The notes below the pieces were generated by a model that ran no database searches, had not been told where the DNA came from, and worked only from the letters and a program-made list of their open reading frames with translations. From NCBI GenBank assembly GCA_027859205.1, contig JAQIBH010000202.1, forward strand, positions 1 to 64,000: a stretch of DNA of 64,000 bases, written 5' to 3'. Positions 13,162-51,265 of the stretch are shown here, one piece after another; position 1 is the first letter of the stretch; every line of letters begins with the position of its first letter. Both the position numbers and the translations under genes were made by a program. Source of the stretch: Bacteroidales bacterium (GTDB taxonomy: Bacteria; Bacteroidota; Bacteroidia; Bacteroidales; UBA12077).

Positions 13162-16100
13162 ATGAAAAAATATATTAAAGTAATAAGAAAAGGAATACTT
13201 GTTTTATTCATAACAGGTGTAACAATGTTTAGTTTAAACGCCCAAACTGGACCTGGAGGTGTTGGTGCAACAGATGCTCCTTCCAGTTTAAAAATGTGGC
13301 TTAGAGCTGATAAAAATGTTAGTTATAATAATCTTAAACAAATCAACGAATGGGTTGATTATAGCGGAAATAGTTTTACTTTGGTAAATTGTGCTACCCA
13401 ACCTGTATTTCAAAGCAATTTTATTAACGGATTTCCTGCCGTTAATTTTTCTTCAGCACAAGCAGGAATGTCCGCAGCAGCTGTTTTGGGAAGCGATCTG
13501 TTTTCTGCTCAAAACAATACCATTATTTTTGTAAAGCAATCAGAAAGTGGATCAAATTGGTTTACCTGGGAGACGGCTACTACTGACACTGTTTCTTTCT
13601 CGCTTAGCGCGAATAAATCGGTTTTCAATTTTCTAAATAAAACATCTGGTCAGCTGACTAGCTCATCCGATGTAAATGGTGCTTTTCATATTATTTCAAA
13701 TGTAATTGATGGAACCGATCAATCTATTTTCCTCGATGGAGCAGCCGATGGAACGCAGGCTAATGCACTTTCGTTAAATACTGCATTAAGCGCCAATCTT
13801 TATTTGGGAACATATGATTGTACTGCAACGGATGATTGGGTTGGATATATCGGAGAAGCAATTATATTTAACACTACTCTTAATTTAGCCGAAAGAACAC
13901 TGGTTGAAAATTATTTAAGTGCAAAATATGACTTAACTATTACAAATGATTATTATGCCGGAGATGATCTTGTGAATGGAGATTATGATTTTGATGTTGC
14001 CGGAATAGGAGAAGAAGCAGATGGAAATTCAATTCTGGCGGTTTCGGATGGTTTATATATTGAAGAAGAAACGGTTCCTCTTGATCCAGGTGATTATTTA
14101 ATTATTGGTCATAGCTCTCTTATTGATAGCGTTACATCTAATGATGTTGTAGCTTCAGTTACACATCGCTGGAATAAAATATGGTATTTTGATAAAACAG
14201 GTAATCTTGATGCTAAAGTATCTTTCGACTTTAGCGAAGGAATCGATGGGGGAACCCCGGGTGAAGTTGTAAATTATAGGCTACTATATCGTGCAGGAAC
14301 AACAGGAAATTTTTCTGAGGTTGCTGTAGTTTCAACTACCATTGAAAATTCAGATCAGGTTGCTTTTGTAGTTGCTGATCTTAATTTACTACCTGGGTTT
14401 TATACCATCGGTACTACTAATGCCCCAAACAGTCCACTGGAAGGAACTAAAACCTGGTATAATTATTATGTTCTTGATACCGATGATTGGGATGACTGGA
14501 GCCGCTGGACATTAGATCCGGATGGAACTCTTCTGATAAATCCGACTCATGTTATTCCCGGCGCAAGCGATACAGTAGTTATACTTAATGGCTCAACAGT
14601 AAACATTAATACGGATAATAAAGTTGTTTCAAAGATACAAATTTTAGATGGTGGTATTTTAAATATAGATGGTGCGACTACTGGTCATGATTTTACCACA
14701 ATTTTGGGAGAGGGAAGAATAAAACTTGAAGCTGACAATTATCCTGCGGGTGACGATTCAGATTTTATTACAAAAGGAACCGTAGAATTTTATGGAGGAT
14801 CTTACAGCATTGCTAATCTAAATACAGCTGACACCTTTTACAATTTAGTAATTAATCTTGATAATGCCGCAAATACTATAATTTTGAAAGATAGCGTTGT
14901 CATTAGTAATGATTTTACTGTAAAAAAAGGGATATTTCAAATTAATAATACTGAAGATGATGTAAAATATACAATTGATATTTCCAATGATGTTGTAGTT
15001 GAAGCATTTGGACAGATTGCAACTGGTACAGGGAATCCAATTCAAACAGCAGCATACAACCATTACGGAAGTATGCCATTAATAGGTGAGTTCCATTCAA
15101 TATATCACGAATTTAATGTTGGTGGAAATTTTACCAATCATGGACCTGTACGCTTTACAAATTTAACTGCTCCCCTTTATAACGAATTTACAACAACCGG
15201 TGCAGTTACACTTCGTTTTAATGGATTAGGGAATCACACGGTAGATCTTTATTCAGACGCATATTTCTATAATTTTATTGTTGATAAAGGAAGCTCCCAA
15301 ACATATATTCTAACAGTATATTCTGCAAATCTTAACTATTTTAATTTATATGGTGCAAACAGGGCAGGTCGCTTGGAAGGAGCACCTTTTTCACCTGAAA
15401 ACCCGGAAATTCGAAAAGCTTTGTTTATTCAAAACGGAACACTAAAATTAACGGGCAATATATATATTCATTCATTGTCTGAAGGAGATAACACTAGTGG
15501 TAATGGTGATTATACCATTGGAGCAAATGCCAGTTTATGGATTGCAGGCTCAGGAGTTAAATTATATTCTACAACAACATCAGTATATGTACATACTCAT
15601 CCTTTACCTGGAGGGACTGTTGGTTTTAATAATGCCTCAGGTTATCAGGGCCTTTCTGTTTATGGAAAATTTAGAATAAGCGATGGTTTTTTTGGTACTG
15701 CAAATTCATCCGGAATAATTTTCTGGGATACTGCAAACGGAACAATGCAAATAGAAGGTGGAACTGTTGATATTTCTCAGTTCAGAAGTGCCGTAGGGGG
15801 TTCCGGAAAAGCAAATTACATTCAATCCGGAGGACTTTTAATGGTGAGGGGTGATGATAAATCAGAAGCTGGAGAAGTGTCAGATGCTAACCCAATATTT
15901 GGCTTGGTAAATACTTCTGATAATTTCCAGATGAGTGGTGGTGCAATTGTTATTTATGATGATGTCGACGGAATTGGTGTTAACGATTTCTTTATTAATT
16001 GTGCTGATGGAAATTTTGGTGTCACCGGTGGTGATATTACTATACAGGATAATGGAGCTAAATTTTTCGATTTTTATTCAACTGCAAATTTATGGAATTT

Positions 16101-19100
16101 GAATATTAAAAAATACGTCAATCCAGGTGATTTTACAACACAGCTTACTCGCGATTTAATTGTTTTGAATGATCTATTGATAGATGAAGATGCTCAACTC
16201 GATCCAACTAATTTTGATCTTACTATTGGCGGTGATTTTGCAATAGGAATTGAGACAGATGGAACATCAACAGCTGTTTATGTTAACAGAGACAATACAA
16301 CTACTTTTAATGGAGGAGGGAATTCAATTATTACTGTTTCTAACGATGCTGTTGCTAATTATTTTAGTCCTTACGATCTGGTAATAAATAAAGACTTATC
16401 TAGTACTACAGTAACAATGGCTTATCGTAATACAACTGTAAACCCAATAGTAAATATTCGTAACGATTTTACCATTAGCAGGGGAACTTTTGATTATGAT
16501 TCCTATATTATTGATGTGAAAGGAGATCTTAATAATAATGGTGTAATGGGTGTTTGGGATAAAACCGGACGAATAAGGTTGGATAATACTGGATCAATTC
16601 AAAATATTAGTTCCTCAATAGGTTCTGCTTATGTTTTTGGGCATTTAGAAGTTGCTCATACAGATGGTTCTGCAAATAATGTTCAACTTAACTCAAATAT
16701 TTCGAGTGATTTATTTACTTTAACTTCTGGTCTTGTTTATGCTCATAATTATAAATTATCCGTTGATACAAATTTTGTAGGAGGTTTCGCAGATTGTGAT
16801 GTCCAGAGGATGATTGAATTCGATTCAAGTCATGCAAACAGGGGCTTAAAATTTAAAATGGATTACAATTATTCTGTTGATACCACAGTAACTTTTCCTG
16901 TTGGAACTTATGATGGGACAACTCATTATTGGGCTGGAGCAGATATAGATATAACATCTGCAGTTGGAAATGTTACAGGAAGTATGACAGTAGCTCCTGT
17001 TCCAATAGCACATCCAACTAACTCGAGTCCTGGCTGCGGAGTGCTTTTAGGTTATTGGAAAGTAAGAGTTGATGGGTTATCAGCTGCCGCTAGTGGTGTT
17101 TCTTATTCCTTTGATACGAATTTTCCTGATGAAGGTTCAGGGACCTATAAAGAGTGGTACCTTATGGAAGGTAGCTGGAGTCAAGAAGGTAATGCTAACA
17201 TTCCTGGAATAAATACATTAGTAGATGCAACTTTGGATGGTTTTAAGACACTTGATTTTTCATGTGCAAAAAATGTATGTTTTAATTCCGTTGATGTTAT
17301 TTATAGCAATGAAACGGGTGGTGGTAATTGGGATGTTGGTGCTAGTTGGCAGGGAGGTTCAACTCCTGGAGATGAGGATATAGCTGTTATTGAAAATGGT
17401 GATGTAATTTCTGTTACAAGAGATAATATTGATGACGTTACAAAGGTTGTTATTCGGTCAGGTGGAACGCTTGATGTAGGAATTTATACCGGGCTTAGCT
17501 ATGGAATAGTTAATGGTGGAGGTAAATTTAGGATTGCTTCAAATACAGGAACAACACCAACGCTTCCTACAGCTGATTTTGACCCGTTCCTATTAAATGA
17601 TACAGCCATTTTTGAATTTTACGGAACCGGTTCGTACACCTTACCTGCTTTGACATATTACCCAAATTTAAAAATTGGTGGGTCAGCCGGAACAGTTAAA
17701 ACTTTACCCGATGCTAATATTACTGTTTTGCAAGATTTAATGATTTATGATGATACAAATGATGGAGTAGTATTAAGATTAAGTAATAGTGCAACTTCTG
17801 GTTACGATTTATCAGTTCTGGATAGTTTAAAGTTAGATAACCAAGGAACATTAATTTTTCCTACTACAGGAGCAACAAGGACTGTCACTGTTGAAAAATC
17901 AATCGATATGGCAGCAAATGGAAATACCGATGCCAATATAATCGAAATTGAAGATGCTGCTGGTAATTTATATACTGATTTTCATAATTTAATTGTTAAA
18001 CAAGATATTGTATTAAACGATAATGCTGTTATCACCTTTTATATAGATACGACAAATCGACGTGCTGTTGATTTATATTTTAATGGTTCAGATCATTCTG
18101 AGATAACTTCATCCACAAGTGTGCCTGCTCTAAATAATTTGGTAGTTGATAAGGATTTAAGTACCAGTGAAGTACTCGTAAGTTCAGAAATTACTTTCAC
18201 AGAAGATACCTACCGACCAATTACTTTTAACCGGGGTCATTTAATTTTCGATAATTCTGATATCAACATCTCATTAAGTTCCGAGGACGGTGATTTTACA
18301 ATTCCTGAAAACAGTAAGCTTTCATTACGCAATGGTTCAATTGCAAATATTACAGGTGCAAGTACCGGAATTATTTTAAACGGAAGCCTGTTTCTTGAAG
18401 GTAGCAGTCAATTATTACTTAACGATGGTACATATGATAATTTTATTGAATATTCCTCTTCCGGGAATTCAATTATCAATGTTTCAGGTACATCTGTATT
18501 AAATGTTGGCTCTCAGTTACGACGAAAAACTACCAGCGATCAGGGTGTGTTAAAGTACTATCAGTCAGGCGGAACTGTTACCCTGGGTAATAATTCAGCT
18601 CCAATAACATCACGAGGTGTATTTGAAGTAATGAATACAAATAGTGTATTTGATTACACAGGTGGCAATTTAATTATTGCCCGCTCACAAAGTGTTTCTA
18701 ACCCTGCAGTATACCTCGATCCTACAAGCTCTACGTTGGTTGACGGAGCTACATTAACATTTGGAAATGACAATACTCCCACCGGTCAAAATATTGGAAT
18801 CTATTCAGCTATCGCTTTAAAGGATATCGTTGTTAGTAATTTAGGTGAAGCAAAAACTGTTACAGTTTATACCTTAGGTTTAACAATAGATTCCTTAAAT
18901 ATTAATACGGGTCAAACCTTTGATGCTAATGACTTAGATCTAACATTAAACGGGAACTTCCGGAATGATGGAACGTATACTCCTGGTACTAATACTACAT
19001 CGTTTACAAGTGCTGATCAGAAAGTTATTGGTGCCACAACATTTAATAATCTAAGTGCTAATCTGACAACATCGTCCGATTCATTAGAAATTTATAATGA

Positions 19101-22074
19101 TATTACAGTTAATGAAAATCTTACTATTACTAATGGTAGATTGCACGATAGGTCTAATACTATTACCTTATTAGGGGATTTTTCAAATTCCGGCGTACAT
19201 TATAGTCAAAGTACGACAACAGGTGGTGTATTGTTTAACGGATCATTACGTCAGGAAATTGCTGGTACCGGAACTTATGGTTTACTTGAAATTAATAATA
19301 CTGCCGGGGTTGAATTGCTCAATGACTTTATTCTTGTCGATCGAAATATTATACTTACAAGCGGTAGTTTTTTTATTAAGCAATTCCAGTTACAACTTGG
19401 ACTTAATGCTGATGTAACTGTGCCATCAGGTGATTTTAGTAAAAACAGAATGGTTGTTTCAAATGGTGCATCAAGCGATGATGGGATTAAAAAATGGGTA
19501 AATGCAGGTACTCCTGCTGACATTTTAATTCCCATTGGGGTTGTTGGTTCATATACTCCGATTTATATATCAAATATAACCACAGTAGGCCCAGGTTCTG
19601 TTTTTGTAAGACCCGTTAATTCGGATCATCCTACGGCATTGGATCCTACTAATGTATTACAATATTATTGGAACATGCAAACTGTTGGTTTCACAAGTTT
19701 TATGGCAGATGTTGATTTTTATTATGAGCAAGCCGATGTAGCGGTAACTGGTATAAATCTGGAATCGGATTATATACCAGCATATCTTCTAGACGTTAAC
19801 TGGTCTAAGTTTGGAGCTGAAAGTGTTGATGCTAACTTGAATATTGTAAAATTTAATTTTAGTACAGGTGAACAGTTAAATGGTGATTTTACTGCAGGAA
19901 TTTCTGATGCTATTCCTGATCAGGTTCCTGTATTTGTTTCAAAAGAAATTGGTAACTGGGAAAATATAAATACCTGGGAGCGTGAAGATGCAGAACCTGT
20001 TACGTCTTATCCTAACGGACATGTGGTTAGAATTAAACATGATGTTACAATAGCCAGTAATTTGAAATCAGCATATAAAACTATTATTGATACAACAGGT
20101 AAATTAATTGTTGGTAACACCATTGGACATTATTTTGGACGTGTGAGCGGTAGAGGACACCTAGCTTTAACTACGGGACGCTTGCCTGCTGGTAACTATG
20201 ACGATTTCTTCGATTGCAGTGGTGGAACTATAGAATGGGGTGGTGATGTAAATTATGAACTACCTGACGAAGGTACTAACTTCAGAAGAATGTTATTTAC
20301 AGGTACAGGAACCAAAACTCTTTCATCGAATAACATAACCATCTGCGATACACTTTGGATAAACGGACCTATTTTAAATAACGATACGCATGATAATACA
20401 ATAACCATAAATGGATTTTTCCATCTTGAATCCGGAGAATTTCATAGTGGAACAACGCTTTCAACTGCAGCATTAATTTTTAGCGGAACTTCTGCACAAA
20501 CCATTACCGGAGATTTTACTGACAACACTGACAACAATACACTGAACAACGTTACCATGAATAATGCTACAGGATTAACTCTTGATGGAGATGTAACTCT
20601 TAAAGGCGATTTAACACTTACTTCTGGAAATATTGATCCAAATGGGAATGCTTTTACTTTAGAAATTGCTTCGGATGTATCTCCTGTTGGCGGTAGTGCT
20701 GCATCATTTGTTGATGGACCTATGTTTAAAGACTTAGCAAGTTTCTCAAATTTTGAATTTCCAATTGGCGACGGAACCAGATATGGTAAATTAGAAATAT
20801 TTAATACAACAACAGGTATAGTTACTTGGGAGGCTCAATATTACAATTATAATCCTACAGCCCATGTTCCTTCGCTAGACATAACAAGTATGGAGGATCC
20901 TCCAATAAAATTTGTTAGTGATAATGAATTTTGGAGACTTGATGGACTCACTAGTGCAGCAGAGGCTATGATCCGTTGGGATGATCAAAGTGTACTCCCT
21001 GCACAAGTTAGCGATTTTGATGATCTTGCTATAGCCAGATGGTCAACATCATCGCGATGGGAAGAAGTAGTTGGTACCGTGGCCGACGGTGGTGTAAATT
21101 CAGGTACCATAACTTCAGATGCTGCTTTAGCTACAGGTGAGCATTTTCTTACTCTTGGTTCAAAAGATGCAACACCTCTGGGTACTGCAACCATTACTTC
21201 TGGTGATGTTTCAATTTGTGATGGTGGCTCAACAAATATTAGCATTGATTTAACCGGAACGGCAACATGGAAACTAGAGATATATAAAGATGGAGGCTGG
21301 TATTCAGATGAAACATTAATTGGAGCTTCTCCTTATTTACTTAATGTTACAACTGCAGGTCTTTATACTATTAATGATGTATGGGATGCGAATGATCTTG
21401 TTTTAGGAACTGTTTTTGGTTCAGGAGTTACAGTAACTGTTGTTCCTGTTCCAGATAATCTTTTAACTGTTACTGGTGGAGGTCCATATTGCGCGGGTGG
21501 TACTGGAGTGGTTGTTGGACTAAGTGGATCAGAACTAAGTGTAAATTATGAACTTTTTGTAGATGGTTCACCATTAAATACTGTTGCTGGAACTGGTGCC
21601 GCTATTTCTTTTGGTTTGCAAACCACAGCAGGAGATTACACAGTTGAAGGAACTCATTCGACAGATGCTGCAGATTTGTGTACTCAAACAATGACAGGTA
21701 GTCAAACTATAACCATTATTCCGGCACCTACTGCAACTATTACTGTTAATGTAGCGCTTGATTCAATTTGCGACGGAATTAATACACAAATTGATATAGA
21801 CTTTACAGCTGGTGCTACACCTTGGGATCTTGTTATTGATGATGGCACAAATCCAGTTGAAAATATAGATGATGTACTTGATCCTTATACATATAATCCA
21901 AGTGTTTTTCCAATTTGGGTTGATGATGGTTCACCTGATACTGATTATGTTTATTCTATACAAATTACTGATGATAATGGATGTACGAACTCATATAATA
22001 GTTCAACAGTAACGGTATTTAAAATTCCTGACACAGGAGATCAATACCATATTTCGAATGATTGGGCGAATTAA
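13162..22074 (+). CDS. Giant secreted repeat protein (2970 aa), LamG/ConA-like N-terminus and beta-rich repeats; putative adhesin
   Basis: Signal peptide; PSSLKMWLRADKNV...; recurring 'W..W...G' + beta-helix-like blocks; C-terminus TGDQYHISNDWAN. Confidence 0.85.
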   Translation: MKKYIKVIRKGILVLFITGVTMFSLNAQTGPGGVGATDAPSSLKMWLRADKNVSYNNLKQINEWVDYSGNSFTLVNCATQPVFQSNFINGFPAVNFSSAQAGMSAAAVLGSDLFSAQNNTIIFVKQSESGSNWFTWETATTDTVSFSLSANKSVFNFLNKTSGQLTSSSDVNGAFHIISNVIDGTDQSIFLDGAADGTQANALSLNTALSANLYLGTYDCTATDDWVGYIGEAIIFNTTLNLAERTLVENYLSAKYDLTITNDYYAGDDLVNGDYDFDVAGIGEEADGNSILAVSDGLYIEEETVPLDPGDYLIIGHSSLIDSVTSNDVVASVTHRWNKIWYFDKTGNLDAKVSFDFSEGIDGGTPGEVVNYRLLYRAGTTGNFSEVAVVSTTIENSDQVAFVVADLNLLPGFYTIGTTNAPNSPLEGTKTWYNYYVLDTDDWDDWSRWTLDPDGTLLINPTHVIPGASDTVVILNGSTVNINTDNKVVSKIQILDGGILNIDGATTGHDFTTILGEGRIKLEADNYPAGDDSDFITKGTVEFYGGSYSIANLNTADTFYNLVINLDNAANTIILKDSVVISNDFTVKKGIFQINNTEDDVKYTIDISNDVVVEAFGQIATGTGNPIQTAAYNHYGSMPLIGEFHSIYHEFNVGGNFTNHGPVRFTNLTAPLYNEFTTTGAVTLRFNGLGNHTVDLYSDAYFYNFIVDKGSSQTYILTVYSANLNYFNLYGANRAGRLEGAPFSPENPEIRKALFIQNGTLKLTGNIYIHSLSEGDNTSGNGDYTIGANASLWIAGSGVKLYSTTTSVYVHTHPLPGGTVGFNNASGYQGLSVYGKFRISDGFFGTANSSGIIFWDTANGTMQIEGGTVDISQFRSAVGGSGKANYIQSGGLLMVRGDDKSEAGEVSDANPIFGLVNTSDNFQMSGGAIVIYDDVDGIGVNDFFINCADGNFGVTGGDITIQDNGAKFFDFYSTANLWNLNIKKYVNPGDFTTQLTRDLIVLNDLLIDEDAQLDPTNFDLTIGGDFAIGIETDGTSTAVYVNRDNTTTFNGGGNSIITVSNDAVANYFSPYDLVINKDLSSTTVTMAYRNTTVNPIVNIRNDFTISRGTFDYDSYIIDVKGDLNNNGVMGVWDKTGRIRLDNTGSIQNISSSIGSAYVFGHLEVAHTDGSANNVQLNSNISSDLFTLTSGLVYAHNYKLSVDTNFVGGFADCDVQRMIEFDSSHANRGLKFKMDYNYSVDTTVTFPVGTYDGTTHYWAGADIDITSAVGNVTGSMTVAPVPIAHPTNSSPGCGVLLGYWKVRVDGLSAAASGVSYSFDTNFPDEGSGTYKEWYLMEGSWSQEGNANIPGINTLVDATLDGFKTLDFSCAKNVCFNSVDVIYSNETGGGNWDVGASWQGGSTPGDEDIAVIENGDVISVTRDNIDDVTKVVIRSGGTLDVGIYTGLSYGIVNGGGKFRIASNTGTTPTLPTADFDPFLLNDTAIFEFYGTGSYTLPALTYYPNLKIGGSAGTVKTLPDANITVLQDLMIYDDTNDGVVLRLSNSATSGYDLSVLDSLKLDNQGTLIFPTTGATRTVTVEKSIDMAANGNTDANIIEIEDAAGNLYTDFHNLIVKQDIVLNDNAVITFYIDTTNRRAVDLYFNGSDHSEITSSTSVPALNNLVVDKDLSTSEVLVSSEITFTEDTYRPITFNRGHLIFDNSDINISLSSEDGDFTIPENSKLSLRNGSIANITGASTGIILNGSLFLEGSSQLLLNDGTYDNFIEYSSSGNSIINVSGTSVLNVGSQLRRKTTSDQGVLKYYQSGGTVTLGNNSAPITSRGVFEVMNTNSVFDYTGGNLIIARSQSVSNPAVYLDPTSSTLVDGATLTFGNDNTPTGQNIGIYSAIALKDIVVSNLGEAKTVTVYTLGLTIDSLNINTGQTFDANDLDLTLNGNFRNDGTYTPGTNTTSFTSADQKVIGATTFNNLSANLTTSSDSLEIYNDITVNENLTITNGRLHDRSNTITLLGDFSNSGVHYSQSTTTGGVLFNGSLRQEIAGTGTYGLLEINNTAGVELLNDFILVDRNIILTSGSFFIKQFQLQLGLNADVTVPSGDFSKNRMVVSNGASSDDGIKKWVNAGTPADILIPIGVVGSYTPIYISNITTVGPGSVFVRPVNSDHPTALDPTNVLQYYWNMQTVGFTSFMADVDFYYEQADVAVTGINLESDYIPAYLLDVNWSKFGAESVDANLNIVKFNFSTGEQLNGDFTAGISDAIPDQVPVFVSKEIGNWENINTWEREDAEPVTSYPNGHVVRIKHDVTIASNLKSAYKTIIDTTGKLIVGNTIGHYFGRVSGRGHLALTTGRLPAGNYDDFFDCSGGTIEWGGDVNYELPDEGTNFRRMLFTGTGTKTLSSNNITICDTLWINGPILNNDTHDNTITINGFFHLESGEFHSGTTLSTAALIFSGTSAQTITGDFTDNTDNNTLNNVTMNNATGLTLDGDVTLKGDLTLTSGNIDPNGNAFTLEIASDVSPVGGSAASFVDGPMFKDLASFSNFEFPIGDGTRYGKLEIFNTTTGIVTWEAQYYNYNPTAHVPSLDITSMEDPPIKFVSDNEFWRLDGLTSAAEAMIRWDDQSVLPAQVSDFDDLAIARWSTSSRWEEVVGTVADGGVNSGTITSDAALATGEHFLTLGSKDATPLGTATITSGDVSICDGGSTNISIDLTGTATWKLEIYKDGGWYSDETLIGASPYLLNVTTAGLYTINDVWDANDLVLGTVFGSGVTVTVVPVPDNLLTVTGGGPYCAGGTGVVVGLSGSELSVNYELFVDGSPLNTVAGTGAAISFGLQTTAGDYTVEGTHSTDAADLCTQTMTGSQTITIIPAPTATITVNVALDSICDGINTQIDIDFTAGATPWDLVIDDGTNPVENIDDVLDPYTYNPSVFPIWVDDGSPDTDYVYSIQITDDNGCTNSYNSSTVTVFKIPDTGDQYHISNDWAN

Positions 22075-33425: not shown

Positions 33426-35027
33426 TTAGTATTTTGAAAGGATTTTTTGGAATAGTGGATTAGGAATAACACCATCGTCATCGCTAGAATACTCTGGTTT
33501 TAATCTGTTTATAAAGTACATTTCGAGTTCAATATTATTTTTTACTTCAATTTTACCTCTGTAGGTACAATCAAAATAATCCTTGATATAATCGTAAGTT
33601 GCTCCGGAAACATTTACTTTACCTACTTCACCGGCTTGTTCCATTCTACTAGCTTTGTTTACAGCATCTCCCCATATATCATAGGCAAATTTCTTTTTCC
33701 CAATAACTCCTGCAATTACTTCGCCTGTGTGAATACCTAATCGGAGTTCCCATGCAACTTCATTATTCTTTTTCTTTTCTTTAGCATAGTCTTTCATAAA
33801 TTTCTGGATCTCTAAACCGGCCAAAACAACATTTATAGGATTACTCTTATTTCTTAATGGAAGTCCCCCGGCACACATAAAAGCATCTCCAATAGTTTTT
33901 ATTTTCTCAATATAATGGTCTTCAATTAGTTCATCAAATTTCTGAATATAAACATTAAGCTCCTCAACCAACTCCTGGCTATCTATTACATCAGCTAACT
34001 TGGAAAAATTCTTAAAATCTGTAAAAAGAATTGTAACCAATTTGTATTTTTTTGATTTAGCAAATCCTTTTTTCTTTAATTGTTCGGCAGTTTCAAATGG
34101 AAGGATATTTAATAAAAGTTCATCTGACTTTTTCTTTTGTGCCTCGAGGTCCCCTTTTTGTTTTTCAATTTCAACGTGTTGTTGTTCTAAAAGTAAATTA
34201 GAACTCTCTAAATGTTCTGTTAAAGTAATTAAATTTTCATTTTTAGCTTCTAAATGTTCTTCAGCTTCTTTTAATGCAGTTACATTTGATTCAATTGCTA
34301 TGTATTTAATTATACTTTCTTGCTCATTATAAACTGGAGAAAGCGTCGTTTGAATCCATATTTCTCTACCTTCTTTTGTTATCCATTTATTTTCATATAA
34401 ATAACTTTCTGCACCCTCTTTACATTGTTTAATTGCCTTAGCTAATTTTGGATTTTTTTCAGGATTAAAGACCGATAATTCATATTTTTCTCTAAATTCT
34501 TCCAGAGAATATCCATACATTCGTTCAAAACCCTCATTTACCCACTCAATTTTATGGTTATGACTTAAAATAACAACCCCTGTAGCAGTTTTTTTTGCAA
34601 CTATAGAAAGCTCGCGAAGTAATTCATGTTCTATATATATTTCGTGTTGAAACTCTCTGCGACTTTCGGCAGCTTCAATTCGTATTAATAATTCTTCCTT
34701 ACTATATGGCCTTTTGATTAAATCTACTATGCCATATTCAAAAATTCGATCAAGATTTGTTCGAGGAGAATAATCAACAATTAAAAGTACAGGGATACTA
34801 TGCGTTGATTTGTCTTGTTTTAAAGACATTACACTTTCAATCCCAGTTTTTCCTAAAACTTCTACACTAATAAATATAATATTTGGTTGATTTTCTAATG
34901 CGGCAGTATAAATATCGTCTCGTTTAGATTTAATTAATTCAAATCTATCCTTTTCATCTTTAAGAATTTCACTCAAATAAGAATATGAATCACTTTTGTC
35001 ATCTGCAATTAATATCTTATACTTCAT
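33426..35027 (-). CDS. REC-PAS-class III nucleotidyl cyclase (predicted adenylyl cyclase)
   Basis: REC-like N-terminus, PAS (VVILSHNHKIEWVNEGFERMYGY), coiled coil, cyclase domain TILFTDFKNFS / EKIKTIGDAFMCAGGLP / YDIWGDAVNKASRME. Confidence 0.9.
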   Translation of the reverse strand: MKYKILIADDKSDSYSYLSEILKDEKDRFELIKSKRDDIYTAALENQPNIIFISVEVLGKTGIESVMSLKQDKSTHSIPVLLIVDYSPRTNLDRIFEYGIVDLIKRPYSKEELLIRIEAAESRREFQHEIYIEHELLRELSIVAKKTATGVVILSHNHKIEWVNEGFERMYGYSLEEFREKYELSVFNPEKNPKLAKAIKQCKEGAESYLYENKWITKEGREIWIQTTLSPVYNEQESIIKYIAIESNVTALKEAEEHLEAKNENLITLTEHLESSNLLLEQQHVEIEKQKGDLEAQKKKSDELLLNILPFETAEQLKKKGFAKSKKYKLVTILFTDFKNFSKLADVIDSQELVEELNVYIQKFDELIEDHYIEKIKTIGDAFMCAGGLPLRNKSNPINVVLAGLEIQKFMKDYAKEKKKNNEVAWELRLGIHTGEVIAGVIGKKKFAYDIWGDAVNKASRMEQAGEVGKVNVSGATYDYIKDYFDCTYRGKIEVKNNIELEMYFINRLKPEYSSDDDGVIPNPLFQKILSKY

Positions 35028-35251
35028 TGGATTTAAAAATGAAAATTTATTATTTAATTTATCAGTTTAAAAATATAACTTTTAAATCAAAATATTATTC
35101 TTTTAAGTCCTTTTTTAATTATATATATGTAATACTCACAACAGTTTTTACTGATTTCATCAAAAACAGTAATAAATAATCGCATATTTCAAAAATAACA
35201 TCGCTATTTATTAAGATTAGTTGAGAACATGTATTATTTTAGTTCTCAAAA

Positions 35252-36505
35252 TTGCATGGGAATTATATGGCTCAAAAATTACTAATAATAAAAAATAACA
35301 ACACAGATATTCAGAAAATTAGTGAATGTTTAAATTCACATTTCTCGGAAATTGAAATATTTTCAACTAGCAATGATAGCAACCTACTAAATAAAGTTAA
35401 ATCAGTAATTCCTGATATAATCATTTTTGATATTGATCAGGCAAAAGATCAGATTGGTGAAAATTTAAGTGTGATAGTTCAGATTTTAAGAATAAAACCA
35501 TTCCCTATTATTGTACTGTCATCAACAAATGATTATAAAAGGGTGTTGAAATCAGGAGCAATTAACTTTATCCAAAAACCTTATTCTGAAATAACGCTAG
35601 TTTCTAATTTTAAAACTGCAATAAATCTAATTGAAATTCTAAAATCAATAAGTATAAAAGAAAAAGTAATAGAAGAAAAGAACCAGAAAATACAAATGCA
35701 AATAAAAAATGAGAATATTCAGCGTGAAATTATCATAAAAAAGAATAAAGAAATAATGGCTGATATTCGATATGCAAGCAGAATACAGCAAGCAATTTTC
35801 CCCAGTGCAAATCTAATAAATGAACTATTTCATGAGTATTTTATATTACATCAGCCCAAAAGTCATGTAAGCGGCGATTTTTATTGGATTTCGCATAAAA
35901 ATAATATTAAAATAATTGTTGTAGGTGATTGCACAGGCCACGGTATTTCTGGTGGACTTATGCACATGTTAGGGTCTGCTTATTTGAATGAAATTATTGC
36001 AAATGGAAACTTCAAAACAGCCAGTGATATTTTGGAACAATTGCGTGATCAAATTATGAGATCATTAAATCAAACAGGTGAAATGGGAGAGACACAAGAT
36101 GGTCTCGATATTGCTTTATGTATAGTTGATGACGAAAATAAAACTCTTCAATTTTCGGGGGCTAATAATCCCTTATATTTGATAAGAAACAAGGAATTAA
36201 TAGAAATAAAAGGTGATAGAATGCCTGTTGGTATCCATATAAATTTTAATAAACCTTTTACTAATCATATCCTAGATTTTCATAGCAATGATCAGTTTTA
36301 TTTGTTTTCAGATGGATATGCCGATCAATTTGGAGGCCCACGTGGAAAGAAATTTAGGTATAAACAATTTAAGGAGCTTGTACAAAGTGTTAGTCATGAA
36401 CCAATGAATATTCAAAAGGAGATATTAACTAATATTCAAGATAAATGGCGTGGATCATTGGAGCAAATTGATGACATACTTGTTTTTGGATTAAAAATAA
36501 AATAA
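35252..36505 (+). CDS. REC-like domain + PP2C/SpoIIE phosphatase; likely start at MAQKLL
   Basis: SGDFYWISHKNNIKIIVVGDCTGHGISGGLMHMLG; IIFDID in REC-like region. Confidence 0.88.
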   Translation: MHGNYMAQKLLIIKNNNTDIQKISECLNSHFSEIEIFSTSNDSNLLNKVKSVIPDIIIFDIDQAKDQIGENLSVIVQILRIKPFPIIVLSSTNDYKRVLKSGAINFIQKPYSEITLVSNFKTAINLIEILKSISIKEKVIEEKNQKIQMQIKNENIQREIIIKKNKEIMADIRYASRIQQAIFPSANLINELFHEYFILHQPKSHVSGDFYWISHKNNIKIIVVGDCTGHGISGGLMHMLGSAYLNEIIANGNFKTASDILEQLRDQIMRSLNQTGEMGETQDGLDIALCIVDDENKTLQFSGANNPLYLIRNKELIEIKGDRMPVGIHINFNKPFTNHILDFHSNDQFYLFSDGYADQFGGPRGKKFRYKQFKELVQSVSHEPMNIQKEILTNIQDKWRGSLEQIDDILVFGLKIK

Positions 36506-36528
36506 CTTTAACTTTTTAATAATCTGAT

Positions 36529-38271
36529 TTGAAAAAAATATCCGTACATATCTGGCTAATATGTCTGACAATCAATCTTTTTTGGTTTTCTGCAAATTCA
36601 CAAGATATTCCTTCAAATATCAAAGTCGAGCTTACTAGTTATGAAACCAAAATAGAACAATACCATAAAGAAAACAATCCTCAACTTGAACTCGAATTTC
36701 TTAATAAAGCTGCATTTTTATGCTGGAATAATCAAATAAATATTAAAGCAATTGATTATTTTAAGAGAGCGATTGGAATAAATGATCAATTGGGAAACAC
36801 CAATGGAGTTATTTTAGCTACAAATTATGTTGGGATGATTTATGATGAAATTCAAGATTATAATTCGGCCGTTAATTATTTTAAAAAGGGTTTAGACTTA
36901 AATAAAAAGCTAAAAAATAAACAGAATATTGCTTCTTCATACAATTACATATCACAATCATATCAGCAATTACCCGACTATGAACAATCAAACAAATGGG
37001 CACTTGAAGGTGTAGAAATAGCAAAGGAGCTAAATGACTTAAAAATGCTAAGAAGCTTTTATGGGATTTTAGCGAATAATTTTCAAAGTATTGGTAATTC
37101 AGAAAAAAGCATAAAGTATTTTGAACTTTTTGCTTCAATTGATAAATTTCTGAAAAAAGAAGAGATAAAAGATATTAAACATGAAACCGCAACGCAAGTC
37201 CAACAGGCAGAGCAAGAGAAAGAGGAAACTAAGCAAGAGCTTGTAATTCAAACAGATAAATTAAAAGAAACGAAAAGCTCTCTTGCATATGTTGAAGAAG
37301 TGTCGCGCGAACAAAAAATGCAGCTTGAGCTTCAGGAATCAAAAATAAGAGAACAAGAAGCAGAATTAAAATTTGAGAGATTAGTTCGTAATACGTTAAC
37401 TGGTGGGATTATAGGCATTTTAATGATTTTTAGTGTTTTAGTTATTTTATATCGTAAAATTAGATCACAAAAAACAAAGATTGAAGAACAACGAGATAAA
37501 TTAGATTTTCAGAATCAACATATTAATTCGAGCATTCAATACGCACAAAATATTCAAAGAGCAATACTCCCTGTTAAAAATCAAATTAATAATCTTTTTG
37601 AAAGCTTTATCTTATATCGGCCAAAAGATATTGTTTCAGGAGATTTTTATTGGTTCACTAAAGTAAATAACATTGCTTTTTTAGCAGTGGTTGATTGTAC
37701 AGGTCACGGAGTTCCTGGTGCATTTATGTCAATGATTGGGAGTAGCCATTTAAATGAAATTGTTATAGAAAAGCAAATTACAGATCCTGCAAAAATATTA
37801 TCTTTATTAGATAAAAAAATTATTGTGTCGTTAAGACAGGCTGAAACTGAAAATAACGATGGTATGGATGTCTGTTTTATTTCTATTAATTTAAAATCAA
37901 ACGAAATTACCTTTTCGGGCGCTAAAAGACCTTTGTTTATTTATAAAAATAAAACATCAGAATTTGATGAAATAAAAGGAGATAGGATTTCAATTGGCGG
38001 AATACGTAAAGGAACAAACGAGGAATTTAATAATCATATAATAAAAGCTCAAAAAGGAGATATTTTATATTTATCTTCGGATGGATTAACAGATCAGAAT
38101 AATTCGGAAAGAAAAAGATTTGGACGTAATAAATTGAAAGAAATTATATTAAATAATGTTGCCGAACCAATGGAAAAGCAGAAAGTGATAATTGAGAAAG
38201 CATTGGATGAATTTCAGCAAGATGAAGAACAACGAGACGACATTACTTTAATTGGTATCAAAATTAATTAA
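36529..38271 (+). CDS. TPR-TM-PP2C/SpoIIE phosphatase
   Basis: N-terminal TPRs, TM segment LTGGIIGILMIFSVLVILY, SGDFYWFTKVNNIAFLAVVDCTGHGVPGAFMSMIG; TTG start. Confidence 0.9.
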   Translation: MKKISVHIWLICLTINLFWFSANSQDIPSNIKVELTSYETKIEQYHKENNPQLELEFLNKAAFLCWNNQINIKAIDYFKRAIGINDQLGNTNGVILATNYVGMIYDEIQDYNSAVNYFKKGLDLNKKLKNKQNIASSYNYISQSYQQLPDYEQSNKWALEGVEIAKELNDLKMLRSFYGILANNFQSIGNSEKSIKYFELFASIDKFLKKEEIKDIKHETATQVQQAEQEKEETKQELVIQTDKLKETKSSLAYVEEVSREQKMQLELQESKIREQEAELKFERLVRNTLTGGIIGILMIFSVLVILYRKIRSQKTKIEEQRDKLDFQNQHINSSIQYAQNIQRAILPVKNQINNLFESFILYRPKDIVSGDFYWFTKVNNIAFLAVVDCTGHGVPGAFMSMIGSSHLNEIVIEKQITDPAKILSLLDKKIIVSLRQAETENNDGMDVCFISINLKSNEITFSGAKRPLFIYKNKTSEFDEIKGDRISIGGIRKGTNEEFNNHIIKAQKGDILYLSSDGLTDQNNSERKRFGRNKLKEIILNNVAEPMEKQKVIIEKALDEFQQDEEQRDDITLIGIKIN

Positions 38272-38806
38272 TCTAATGACTGATATAGATATGGTTGAAA
38301 TTATAAATAGTAAAACAATTTTATCTTATAAGGGACCATTTTATATAGAACTTATATCTGTATTTGGTACTAACATTAGGAATTTTAATGACATTTATAG
38401 CAATGCTCGAAAAAAACTTTTTAAAATTTTCATTGAACTTTCTCAAAACGTTTCGAATTATTCTGAGAATTTCCACATGGTTAATAATGTTCAAAGAATA
38501 GGTGTAGGTGAACTTTTTTTAAAAGAATTTGATACAGCCTATAGTTTCACAACCATAAATCAAGTAAAGAAAACTGATGCTGCGATACTGGCAGAAAGAT
38601 GCGAAATTGTAAATGCTTCAGATCAATTGAAATTAAGAGAATTAAAAAGAGAACAACGTTTAAATTCACCAGGTGAAAAATTTGGAGCCAGAATTGGTTT
38701 AATTCAGGCTGTAATGCTTTCAAGAAATCACTTAGAATATAAAGTAGAAAATATAAATGAAAACTTTTCTTATTTTTCATTAACAGTTAAAATCGATAAA
38801 TATTAA
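38252..38806 (+). CDS. SiaB-like protein kinase (DUF6272-type); likely start at MTDIDM (~38277)
   Basis: ELSQNVSNYSE N-box-like, GARIGLIQAVMLSR; follows PP2C gene and precedes SiaC-like gene. Confidence 0.75.
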   Translation: MVSKLINLMTDIDMVEIINSKTILSYKGPFYIELISVFGTNIRNFNDIYSNARKKLFKIFIELSQNVSNYSENFHMVNNVQRIGVGELFLKEFDTAYSFTTINQVKKTDAAILAERCEIVNASDQLKLRELKREQRLNSPGEKFGARIGLIQAVMLSRNHLEYKVENINENFSYFSLTVKIDKY

Positions 38807-38818
38807 ACGAAACATAAT

Positions 38819-39202
38819 ATGGAAAACATTATTTTAACGAGTTCACCTTCGACCCCTTATTTCCCTGAAGTTAATTTTGACATTGATAAGGGAGTTTGCG
38901 AAATAAGCGGTGAATCATATATGGAAGAAACTTATAAGTTTTACTTACCATTGATTAATTGGCTGAAAGATTACGTTAAGCTTATTAAAAAACCATTAGA
39001 GCTAAATATTAAACTTATATATTTAAATACAAGCTCTACAAAATGTGTTTTAGATATTCTTGAAATTTTAAAAGATTTTGAAGATGATTCAGGACAAGTG
39101 AAAGTTAATTGGTATTATGATAAATCTGATCCGGATATGGTTGATGAAGTCGAAGATTTTGAGGCTGAATCGGGCATAAAAATAGAACTCAAGGAATTTT
39201 AA
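38819..39202 (+). CDS. SiaC-like (DUF1987) regulatory phosphoprotein
   Basis: FDIDKGVCEISGESYMEET, LNTSSTKCVLDILEIL. Confidence 0.78.
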   Translation: MENIILTSSPSTPYFPEVNFDIDKGVCEISGESYMEETYKFYLPLINWLKDYVKLIKKPLELNIKLIYLNTSSTKCVLDILEILKDFEDDSGQVKVNWYYDKSDPDMVDEVEDFEAESGIKIELKEF

Positions 39203-48034: not shown

Positions 48035-51000
48035 ATGTTTAAAACACTATTTTTGATACTAATAAGTGCCTTCTTCTCAATTCATTCTTCTTTGAGTCAA
48101 CAGTATTATTCTAGAAATTATACAATTAATAATGGGCTGCCTGATAATTGTATTCAAGATCTTTATAAAGATAGTAGAGGCTTCCTTTGGATTGGTACTA
48201 ATGCCGGTCTTTCTAGATTTGATGGCGAGAATTTCAATGTTTATACATCTCAAGATGGTTTAATTGGAGATAAAATAAGCTCTATTACAGAAAGTGAAAA
48301 AGGAAGTATTTGGGTTGGCTGTTACGGTAGTGGTATTTCTAAATTAAATGGTAAAGAAATTATATCATACAATACTTCTTCAGGTTTAATTTCAAACGAA
48401 GTAAGAAAAATCCATTACTCGGTTAAGTATAAAATATTGCTTATTGGAACTGAAAATGGCTTAACAATTTATGATAATGAAAGATTTTTCTCGTTTCACG
48501 AAAAGCTTAAAAATGTTGATGAAAGACTGCAAATTAATAGTTTTATTGAAAAAGACGATTTTATTTATGTTTTTACAAATGGAAGTGGTTTGTATAAGTA
48601 CATTCCAAAATCACGAGATTTAATTAGAATTTCTGAATATAATACTTTGAATAAACCTTATATTAATTCTGCATTTATTTCAAATAATGGCGATACTTTA
48701 TTAAGCAAATATCAAGGGAATCTCATTTCGCTTAAAAACGGGAGAATTAATACATTAAATAATATAGGTCGCATTACAGATTACATTGAGGATAACGAAA
48801 ATAATATATGGATATCTTCCTGGAGCAATAATTATACGAATACAGGAGGATTATTTAAATATGATAGTATTGGGATTACAAATTTCGGCAAGTATCTTAA
48901 TATTAACTCCAGTAATATTTTATCACTTGAATATGATGATACAGAAAATCTTTTATGGATAGGTACTAAAGACGAAGGACTTTATTTATATCCATTAGCT
49001 AATTTTTCGTACTATAAAGCTCAAGATTTTAATTTAACTGAGTTTGATATAGGAGATTTAATTGCAGATAATTCAAATAATCTTTGGATAGCAACAAAAA
49101 AAAGTATCATAAAAAAATATGGTAATGATTATTATAAAATATTTGGTTTTGATTTATTTAAATCGGCATTTGAGTATTTTGTTAAAAATACAATCAAAAC
49201 TAAATACAATTATTTAATTGATAAGGATGGCTCTTTTGAAAAATACCAGCAAAAAATTTCAAAAGGTACATATCCTTTCCCAAATCCTTATAGAAGAGTT
49301 AATAGTGAAATATTACCTGCAAAAAGTCTTTATAAACCTTTAAAATATGAAATTTTAATAAATAAAGAAATAGAGGAATTAAACTCTGTTACTTTAGATT
49401 CAAATGAAAATATTTGGGTAGGAAGTAATGTTGGGATTTTTAAAATTGATAGAAAGACAAATGGAATTTTGTATTTTGATATGGAGGGAAATCAATTTAG
49501 TTGTTTTTCAATGGATTCAAATAGCATAATTTATGGTGGAAGTTGGGCTGATTTATTTATTTACCCGGATATAGTAGGAAATTCCAACTTTAATTTATTT
49601 AATTATTACGAACAAAAGAGTCCCATAAATATTAACAAAATAAAAATTCAAGATGATAAGGTTTGGTTTATTAGCTCTAATCGTGGATTGTTTTTGTATT
49701 ATCGAGATAAATTTTATTCAACTTATTTTGATAAATCAATTGAATATCATGATTTTAATGATATATGTTTTGATAATTTAGGGAACATAATTATTGGCGG
49801 GAATAATGGTAAAATATACATAGCAGAGTTTTTGAATGATGGTATACTTATTAAATTCGAGATTGATAAGAGGAGTGGATTGAAAGGAACAAGCATAAGG
49901 TTTTTAAATTGCACTTATGATAATATATTAATTGCAGGTACTAACGCTGGATTAAATTTAATTGATCTCAATGTTTTGTATAAAACAGGAAAAATTTCCA
50001 TAAAAACTATTGATGAATCGAAAGGATTCGTAGATTATTCAGGACAAACATCCTTAATACAAGATTCTACATATTTATGGATTGGATCAGAAAAAAACCT
50101 TATTAAAGCTTCACTTGAGCAACTAAAAGCTAAAAAATCAAAAAAAGTTAGTTTCTATATTAAATCAATAGAAATCAACAATGAACAAATAGATATTGAA
50201 TCATTGGTGGACATAGATATATGGACAAATATTCCAAGATCAAATTTTAAACTACCATATAATAAAAATTCAATTACTATAAATTACGATGTTATAAAGT
50301 TTTTGGATCATGACAACTCAAATTTTAGTTATAAACTGGAAGGATATCATAAAAAATGGATTAAAGATAATAATGATAGAAGAATTATTTTCCAAAACTT
50401 GAATTCCGGAAAATACAGATTAAGGATTAAAGTATTAAACGAAAACGATGATATAGCCTACCAGGAGTTACTCTTGAGCTTTACTATTTTACGACCATTT
50501 TGGCTTAAATGGTGGTTTATAGGTCTAACTTTAATTTTTATATTATTACTAATTTGGTTAATGATTTATTTAAGATCTCAATCAATAAAAAAATATGAGC
50601 GTCAGAAATCAGAAATCTCTGAGCGAATCTCTGAATTTGAAATGAAAGCATTAAGAGCACAAATGAATCCTCATTTTATTTTTAATGTAATTAATTCTAT
50701 TCAAAATTATATGCTTGATAATAATGTTGATGCTGCTTTAAATTACCTTTCCGATTTTGCAAAACTAATAAGACTAACACTAGATAACGTTTCGAAAAAA
50801 CAAATATCATTAGAAGAAGAATTAAAATATTTAAAGTACTACGTTAATTTGGAACAAATGCGATTTGATAAAAAATTCGAGATCAATATAATTGTCCCAG
50901 CTGAATTTGAGAATAGAAGATTCATAATCCCTTCAATGATATTACAACCTTATGTTGAAAATTCTATTAAGCATGGATTTACGTTTAAAAATGAAGGTGG

Positions 51001-51265
51001 AAAAATTCATCTCGAATTTCTGGTTTCCGATGATAATATTTTAAAATGTATTATTGAAGACAATGGAATAGGTCGTAAAAAAGCCAGAGAGCTTAATAAA
51101 GGTAAAATGAATCAAAGTTCAAAAGGTACTTTTATTACAAATGAAAGACTATCATTGTTAAATCAAACTAAGCAAAGAAAAGGTTATAAAGTTGAGATTA
51201 TTGATTTATACGATGAATATCATTTAGCTAGAGGTACTCGTGTTGAAATATTTATTCCAGTATAA
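48035..51265 (+). CDS. Two-component regulator propeller + Y_Y_Y + LytS-type histidine kinase
   Basis: Propeller repeats (GLPDNCIQDLYKDSRGFLWIGTNAGLSRFDG), ALRAQMNPHFIFNVINSIQNY, PYVENSIKHG. Confidence 0.93.
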   Translation: MFKTLFLILISAFFSIHSSLSQQYYSRNYTINNGLPDNCIQDLYKDSRGFLWIGTNAGLSRFDGENFNVYTSQDGLIGDKISSITESEKGSIWVGCYGSGISKLNGKEIISYNTSSGLISNEVRKIHYSVKYKILLIGTENGLTIYDNERFFSFHEKLKNVDERLQINSFIEKDDFIYVFTNGSGLYKYIPKSRDLIRISEYNTLNKPYINSAFISNNGDTLLSKYQGNLISLKNGRINTLNNIGRITDYIEDNENNIWISSWSNNYTNTGGLFKYDSIGITNFGKYLNINSSNILSLEYDDTENLLWIGTKDEGLYLYPLANFSYYKAQDFNLTEFDIGDLIADNSNNLWIATKKSIIKKYGNDYYKIFGFDLFKSAFEYFVKNTIKTKYNYLIDKDGSFEKYQQKISKGTYPFPNPYRRVNSEILPAKSLYKPLKYEILINKEIEELNSVTLDSNENIWVGSNVGIFKIDRKTNGILYFDMEGNQFSCFSMDSNSIIYGGSWADLFIYPDIVGNSNFNLFNYYEQKSPININKIKIQDDKVWFISSNRGLFLYYRDKFYSTYFDKSIEYHDFNDICFDNLGNIIIGGNNGKIYIAEFLNDGILIKFEIDKRSGLKGTSIRFLNCTYDNILIAGTNAGLNLIDLNVLYKTGKISIKTIDESKGFVDYSGQTSLIQDSTYLWIGSEKNLIKASLEQLKAKKSKKVSFYIKSIEINNEQIDIESLVDIDIWTNIPRSNFKLPYNKNSITINYDVIKFLDHDNSNFSYKLEGYHKKWIKDNNDRRIIFQNLNSGKYRLRIKVLNENDDIAYQELLLSFTILRPFWLKWWFIGLTLIFILLLIWLMIYLRSQSIKKYERQKSEISERISEFEMKALRAQMNPHFIFNVINSIQNYMLDNNVDAALNYLSDFAKLIRLTLDNVSKKQISLEEELKYLKYYVNLEQMRFDKKFEINIIVPAEFENRRFIIPSMILQPYVENSIKHGFTFKNEGGKIHLEFLVSDDNILKCIIEDNGIGRKKARELNKGKMNQSSKGTFITNERLSLLNQTKQRKGYKVEIIDLYDEYHLARGTRVEIFIPV

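Follow-up and report, generated by a model that had tools for sequence, protein, structure and literature searches.

A SiaABC-type switch cassette next to a class III adenylate cyclase gene in a member of the Bacteroidales

The genes at positions 35267 to 39202 of the analysed window (the whole stretch of 64,000 nucleotides from a Bacteroidales genome) probably constitute a SiaABC-type switch operon, a cassette that would have come later to its place beside an adenylate cyclase gene. For the output partner of the SiaC protein, two candidates can be named: a TerB-ABC-ABC2 transporter, to which SiaC has a strong genomic link, and, within the genus of the source organism, the adenylate cyclase, for which the link is weak.

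Organization of the locus

Five genes were confirmed at the positions given in the preliminary description of this DNA, using open reading frames and a Pfam domain search of the window. Both the coordinates and the domain matches agree with the arrangement described there, that is, a plus-strand gene run flanked by a divergent REC-PAS-class III cyclase:

33426..35027, minus strand: class III adenylate cyclase of the structure REC(pseudo)-PAS-helical linker-cyclase, 533 aa, adjoining the cassette in divergent orientation (PF00211, 2.7e-50; PAS_9, 1.8e-14; Response_reg, 2.5e-8)
35028..35266, no strand: intergenic spacer of ~240 bp between the divergent starts of the cyclase and PP2C1 genes (alignment of 18 spacers from the genus)
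35267..36505, plus strand: PP2C1, degenerate REC and SpoIIE/PP2C phosphatase, 412 aa from ATG (SpoIIE, 1.2e-17; NCBIfam model of SiaA, 181 bits over the PP2C part)
36529..38271, plus strand: PP2C2, signal peptide, TPR, TM and SpoIIE/PP2C phosphatase, 580 aa (SpoIIE, 1.2e-23; catalytic part SiaA-like)
38276..38806, plus strand: SiaB-like kinase (DUF6272), ~176 aa (PF19788, 1.9e-25; NF038262, above cut-off)
38819..39202, plus strand: SiaC-like phosphoprotein, 127 aa (PF09345, Pfam SiaC, 4.9e-39)

Comparison with relatives suggests the ATG at 35267 as the true start of PP2C1, the open reading frame of which itself opens at TTG 35252, and the ATG at 38276 as that of SiaB, for which the call began at 38252. 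The plus-strand order is REC-PP2C, TPR-TM-PP2C, DUF6272 kinase and SiaC, with gaps of ~24 bp or less. Judged from sequence alone, this gene order places the SiaABC switch genes next to each other in one putative operon. The domain search also confirmed that the plus-strand run contains no GGDEF gene; lacking the GGDEF partner SiaD, it does not qualify as a SiaABCD c-di-GMP module. Two A+T-rich blocks are conserved in the alignment of the 18 genus spacers between cyclase and PP2C1, and their role as promoters is putative. Elsewhere in the window, an open frame of 2970 aa (13162-22074) had no Pfam match at 1e-5, and a sensor histidine kinase of the Reg_prop/Y_Y_Y type (1076 aa; 48035-51265) was detected.

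Conserved residues of the switch proteins and the cyclase

The closest solved chain to PP2C2 is the PP2C domain of SiaA (6k4e; 2.6e-37). The window SiaC is closest to the SiaC structures 6kko/7e6g (1.4e-18, with NTS aligned), while the best solved match of the window SiaB is SiaB itself (6kko_A; 7e-5). The kinase scores above the NCBIfam cut-off for 'SiaB family protein kinase', and the window SiaC falls under that of the SiaC equivalog (97.8 of 150 bits). In the phosphosite motif NTSS of the latter protein, T71 aligns with T68 of P. aeruginosa SiaC, and the N-T-S phospho-Thr motif is present in all SiaC orthologs of the genus. The kinase possesses a Glu aligned with the catalytic Glu of SiaB (FIELSQN versus YIEMTQN), and the metal-binding Asps are kept in both SiaA-type PP2C/SpoIIE phosphatases, two genes of this type being present. 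With these closest structures and with phosphosite and catalytic residues preserved, the SiaABC-like partner switch proposed earlier is borne out at the level of sequence. The cyclase, in turn, retains the features of a class III adenylate cyclase: the metal-binding Asps, the Lys/Asp substrate pair (EKIKTIGD, YDIWGD), and the Asn/Arg transition-state residues. Since these are homologous proteins with phosphosite, catalytic, and metal-binding residues kept, both phospho-switch chemistry and cAMP synthesis are likely to take place at the locus.

From homology to SiaABC, we infer the following phosphorylation chemistry. The two PP2C phosphatases would oppose one SiaB-type kinase at Thr71 of a single SiaC, PP2C2 being equipped with a periplasmic TPR sensor and PP2C1 with a presumably phosphorylation-deaf REC-like domain. 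Unphosphorylated SiaC would bind a helical partner, which may be a protein encoded elsewhere (the recurrent one in this family being the TerB-ABC transporter) or, less probably, the neighbouring cyclase.

Origin of the cyclase-cassette adjacency

The cyclase gene adjoins the cassette in 18 of the 19 other genus members. All five genes are present in 16 of these 18; of the other two, G004 has its locus truncated at the end of a contig and G010 is devoid of PP2C1. G015 is the exception in the genus: its cyclase and its SiaC-SiaB-PP2C2 genes are located on separate contigs, neither of them at a break. The same fmt-LysM-cdd-cyclase order occurs in the outgroup genome G062, from which the cassette is absent, and a cdd-cyclase pair without Sia genes was found in G048. 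The sister genus carries PP2C1-PP2C2-SiaB(-SiaC) elsewhere and without a cyclase (L063 and L065; in part L064). Because the outgroup shows fmt-LysM-cdd-cyclase in the absence of Sia genes and the sister genus carries the cassette apart from any cyclase, the adjacency, which is confined to one genus, looks secondary. In the simplest history, the cassette, an old unit of the family, would have landed in the genus ancestor beside an older cytidine deaminase (cdd)-adenylate cyclase pair.

It is quite possible that this juxtaposition is due to chance and was kept by slow rearrangement, the partner of SiaC being an unrelated protein encoded elsewhere. LysM and cdd, which have no plausible link to the switch, have stayed next to the cyclase on its far side equally well, and these genomes abound in Sia loci as well as in cyclases. 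Conservation of gene order within the genus argues only weakly for a functional link, because fmt, LysM, and cdd adjoin the cyclase as stably as the cassette does. What speaks against a chance origin is that gene order has been rearranged in the genus on the far sides of SiaC and LysM, whereas the block between them is intact in most species. In addition, the REC domain of the cyclase changed its character in the genus: all 20 genus members have lost the phospho-acceptor Asp, which 11 of 14 orthologs from outside the genus still possess. The adjacency retained together with the lost REC phosphosite could reflect real coupling.

In its explicit form, the coupling proposal holds that cAMP synthesis is activated by unphosphorylated SiaC bound to the helical linker of the cyclase, with the phosphatases as the on-switch and SiaB as the off-switch. 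We regard this as rather unlikely. Its precedent is found in P. aeruginosa, where SiaC binds the stalk of SiaD, a diguanylate cyclase (PMC8457831). Besides the adjacency in the genus, the proposal is consistent with the loss of the REC Asp, as if the phosphorelay input had been abandoned on the stem that gained the cassette, and with the REC acid pocket of PP2C1, which is degenerate in the genus but intact in the two sister-genus copies examined. Conservation of the cyclase linker (81%) comes close to that of the catalytic domain (83%) and exceeds that of REC (64%). Against SiaC gating stand the divergent orientation of the genes, which are not co-transcribed, and the separation of cyclase and cassette outside the genus. 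A 'KKSDELL' stretch in the linker was considered as a SiaD-like SiaC-binding motif and dropped, being common to class III cyclases by our reading.

Sia genes and cyclases in other genomes

The preliminary description had called for conservation of the cyclase next to siaB/siaC-like genes across Bacteroidota. The search located this adjacency in one genus, and none of the 65 other Sia loci has a class III cyclase within three genes, which counts against SiaC gating. In 35 other Bacteroidales genomes that carry SiaC, only three of the 79 cyclases have Sia genes nearby. The third linkage survey covered 79 named Bacteroidota loci. Recurrence in the three surveys (79 cyclases in 35 genomes, 79 Bacteroidota loci, and 65 Sia loci) was insufficient for a general SiaB/SiaC-cyclase module, and no recurrent linkage of the window cyclase with SiaB/SiaC was found outside the genus. 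Of the idea that the cyclase replaces the diguanylate cyclase and is gated by SiaC, the linkage in 18 of 19 genomes and the loss of the REC phosphosite speak in favour, and the secondary, genus-restricted adjacency with no counterpart at 65 other loci speaks against.

The Sia/cyclase neighbourhoods that do occur elsewhere are in line with SiaC gating. In two Salinivirgaceae, SiaB immediately precedes a PAS-cyclase (L167, the locus of genome G042, and L178). At L080, a SiaB-SiaB-SiaC fusion comes two genes ahead of a REC-cyclase. A Flavobacteriales genome has SiaB-PP2C-SiaC two genes beyond a cyclase (L171), and at L152 a pair of SiaC genes is located close to a cyclase. The number of such neighbours within the order is, however, close to the 1-2 expected by chance according to our rough estimate. 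A second cyclase of the source genome near a SiaB-SiaB/SiaC pair (L019; also in G012, G016, and G017) was rejected as a further case, as alcohol dehydrogenase and penicillin-binding protein genes intervene. Several Bacteroidota have a PP2C gene directly upstream of a class III cyclase on the same strand (L118, L121, L171, and L194), in some cases with TPR in both proteins.

Class III cyclases are present in 56 of the 57 SiaC-bearing genomes of the order versus 9 of the 40 without SiaC. This co-occurrence was discarded as support, since it is confounded by lineage and by signalling-rich genomes; it is gone in the phylum-wide sample (7/9 versus 92/168). Branch-rate covariation between SiaC and the cyclase (rho 0.42) was the best for SiaC among the genes compared, a point for SiaC gating, but the unrelated pair cyclase-FMT gave about as high values (0.33-0.41), and the covariation was set aside as noise.

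Expansion of SiaC in the Bacteroidales

To our knowledge, SiaC is known solely as the activator of one diguanylate cyclase. The source genome contains 19 SiaC-family genes, five class III cyclase hits, and a single GGDEF domain, which is located on a different contig from the window. Genus mates possess 9-18 SiaC genes per genome, and members of other families of the order have up to 22. A GGDEF domain of any kind was detected in 12 of 97 relatives from the order (G000-G096), and 47 of the 57 SiaC-bearing genomes in this set are GGDEF-free. In the phylum sample, SiaC carriers number 10 of 178 genomes, the nine besides the source genome holding one to three copies. The SiaC expansion is a feature of the Bacteroidales, and diguanylate cyclases cannot explain it in this order. 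In an order whose genomes hold up to 22 SiaC genes and usually lack diguanylate cyclases altogether, SiaC must have other outputs.

Three loci (L080:2067-3584, L083:3394-4911, and L084:6736-8274) encode fusions of kinase and substrate, with SiaB-SiaB-SiaC joined in a single chain of 505-512 aa. Tandem SiaB-SiaB proteins of ~375 aa occur at other loci, and L251 displays a PP2C-SiaB fusion.

A transporter as the recurrent neighbour of SiaC

The Sia switch family of the order is tied mainly to an ABCG-like transporter, a protein of ~1025 aa with TerB, ABC ATPase, and ABC2 membrane domains. Its gene lies within three genes in 29 of the 65 Sia loci. Outside the source genome, it was found in 3 of 11 loci from more distant genomes and in 23 of 40 loci from other genomes of the order; most of the latter were chosen as high-scoring SiaC matches, and this fraction is not an unbiased estimate. 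The pairing of SiaC and transporter recurs across Bacteroidota. Three of the four transporter paralogs in the source genome directly adjoin SiaC (L016:1417-11784, L015:9571-15110, and L027:4854-9500; transporters of ~1020-1041 aa), and the remaining one lies at the edge of a contig. Two layouts recur. In one, a putative methyltransferase gene is accompanied by SiaB-SiaC, with the transporter and a ~300-aa protein in convergent orientation. The other is CheR-CheB-GAF-PAS-PP2C-SiaB-SiaC-transporter-X300-X145, represented in the source genome by L016 (CheR-CheB-GAF-PAS.PP2C-SiaB-SiaC-ABC-X300-X151). The presence of SiaC and of the transporter (threshold of 1e-120, fixed beforehand) agrees in 96 of 97 genomes, with both in 56, SiaC only in one, and neither in 40. 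These genomes are related, so that the Fisher value is no true probability, but those outside the family of the window represent one family each. Both the function of the transporter and its contact with SiaC are putative. The preliminary description had held that a partner of the SiaC-like protein found elsewhere would speak against cyclase gating; in part this is the case, as the recurrent neighbour of the family is the TerB-ABC transporter.

The window SiaC might act in trans on such a transporter, in the manner of its paralogs encoded beside transporters, and both the adjacency in the source genome and among the 65 loci and the agreement in presence point in this direction. We consider it distinctly unlikely, given that each of these transporters has an adjoining SiaC of its own, that no transporter lies near the window locus or the sister-genus cassette, and that partner specificity is expected with 19 SiaC paralogs. 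In a more general picture, Bacteroidales SiaC proteins would serve as phospho-threonine output adaptors, most of them switching TerB-ABC transporters and one wired to a cyclase whose phosphorelay input was lost as the cassette arrived; this picture appears unlikely. The probabilities attached to the alternatives overlap with that of our preferred reading, a SiaABC-type switch operon that came to lie beside the cyclase, since the latter leaves the output open.

Comparison with known systems

In the open-access papers searched, no class III cyclase was described as the target of a partner switch, and no transporter as linked to SiaC. If true, a SiaC-gated cyclase would be the first partner switch on cAMP synthesis, as far as found in those papers. 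DUF1987 proteins have been proposed to modulate adjacent proteins (PMC8457831). The SiaC expansion in the order and the transporter link merit greater attention than does the cyclase.

In domain order and active site, the window cyclase matches other Bacteroidota class III adenylate cyclases of the REC-PAS type; most of these, unlike those of the window genus, keep the REC phospho-acceptor Asp. The cassette resembles SiaABCD, the biofilm switch of Pseudomonas aeruginosa (PMC7647112, PMC8457831), in the TM PP2C with the same linker and catalytic part, the GHKL-type kinase SiaB, the NTS phosphosite of SiaC, and the adjacency of the genes in one operon. It differs in having two phosphatases instead of one, with TPR and pseudo-REC sensors, and in the absence of a GGDEF partner from the locus. 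By our reading of the alignment, SiaD-contact positions on helix 3 of SiaC are also altered in the window protein (R103 to D, L107 to E). In HsbRA-HsbD and BgrTUVW-BgrR, as cited in PMC8457831, a STAS-like phosphoprotein under the control of a phosphatase and a kinase likewise acts on a cyclase; the targets given there are diguanylate cyclases, unlike the class III adenylate cyclase proposed here.
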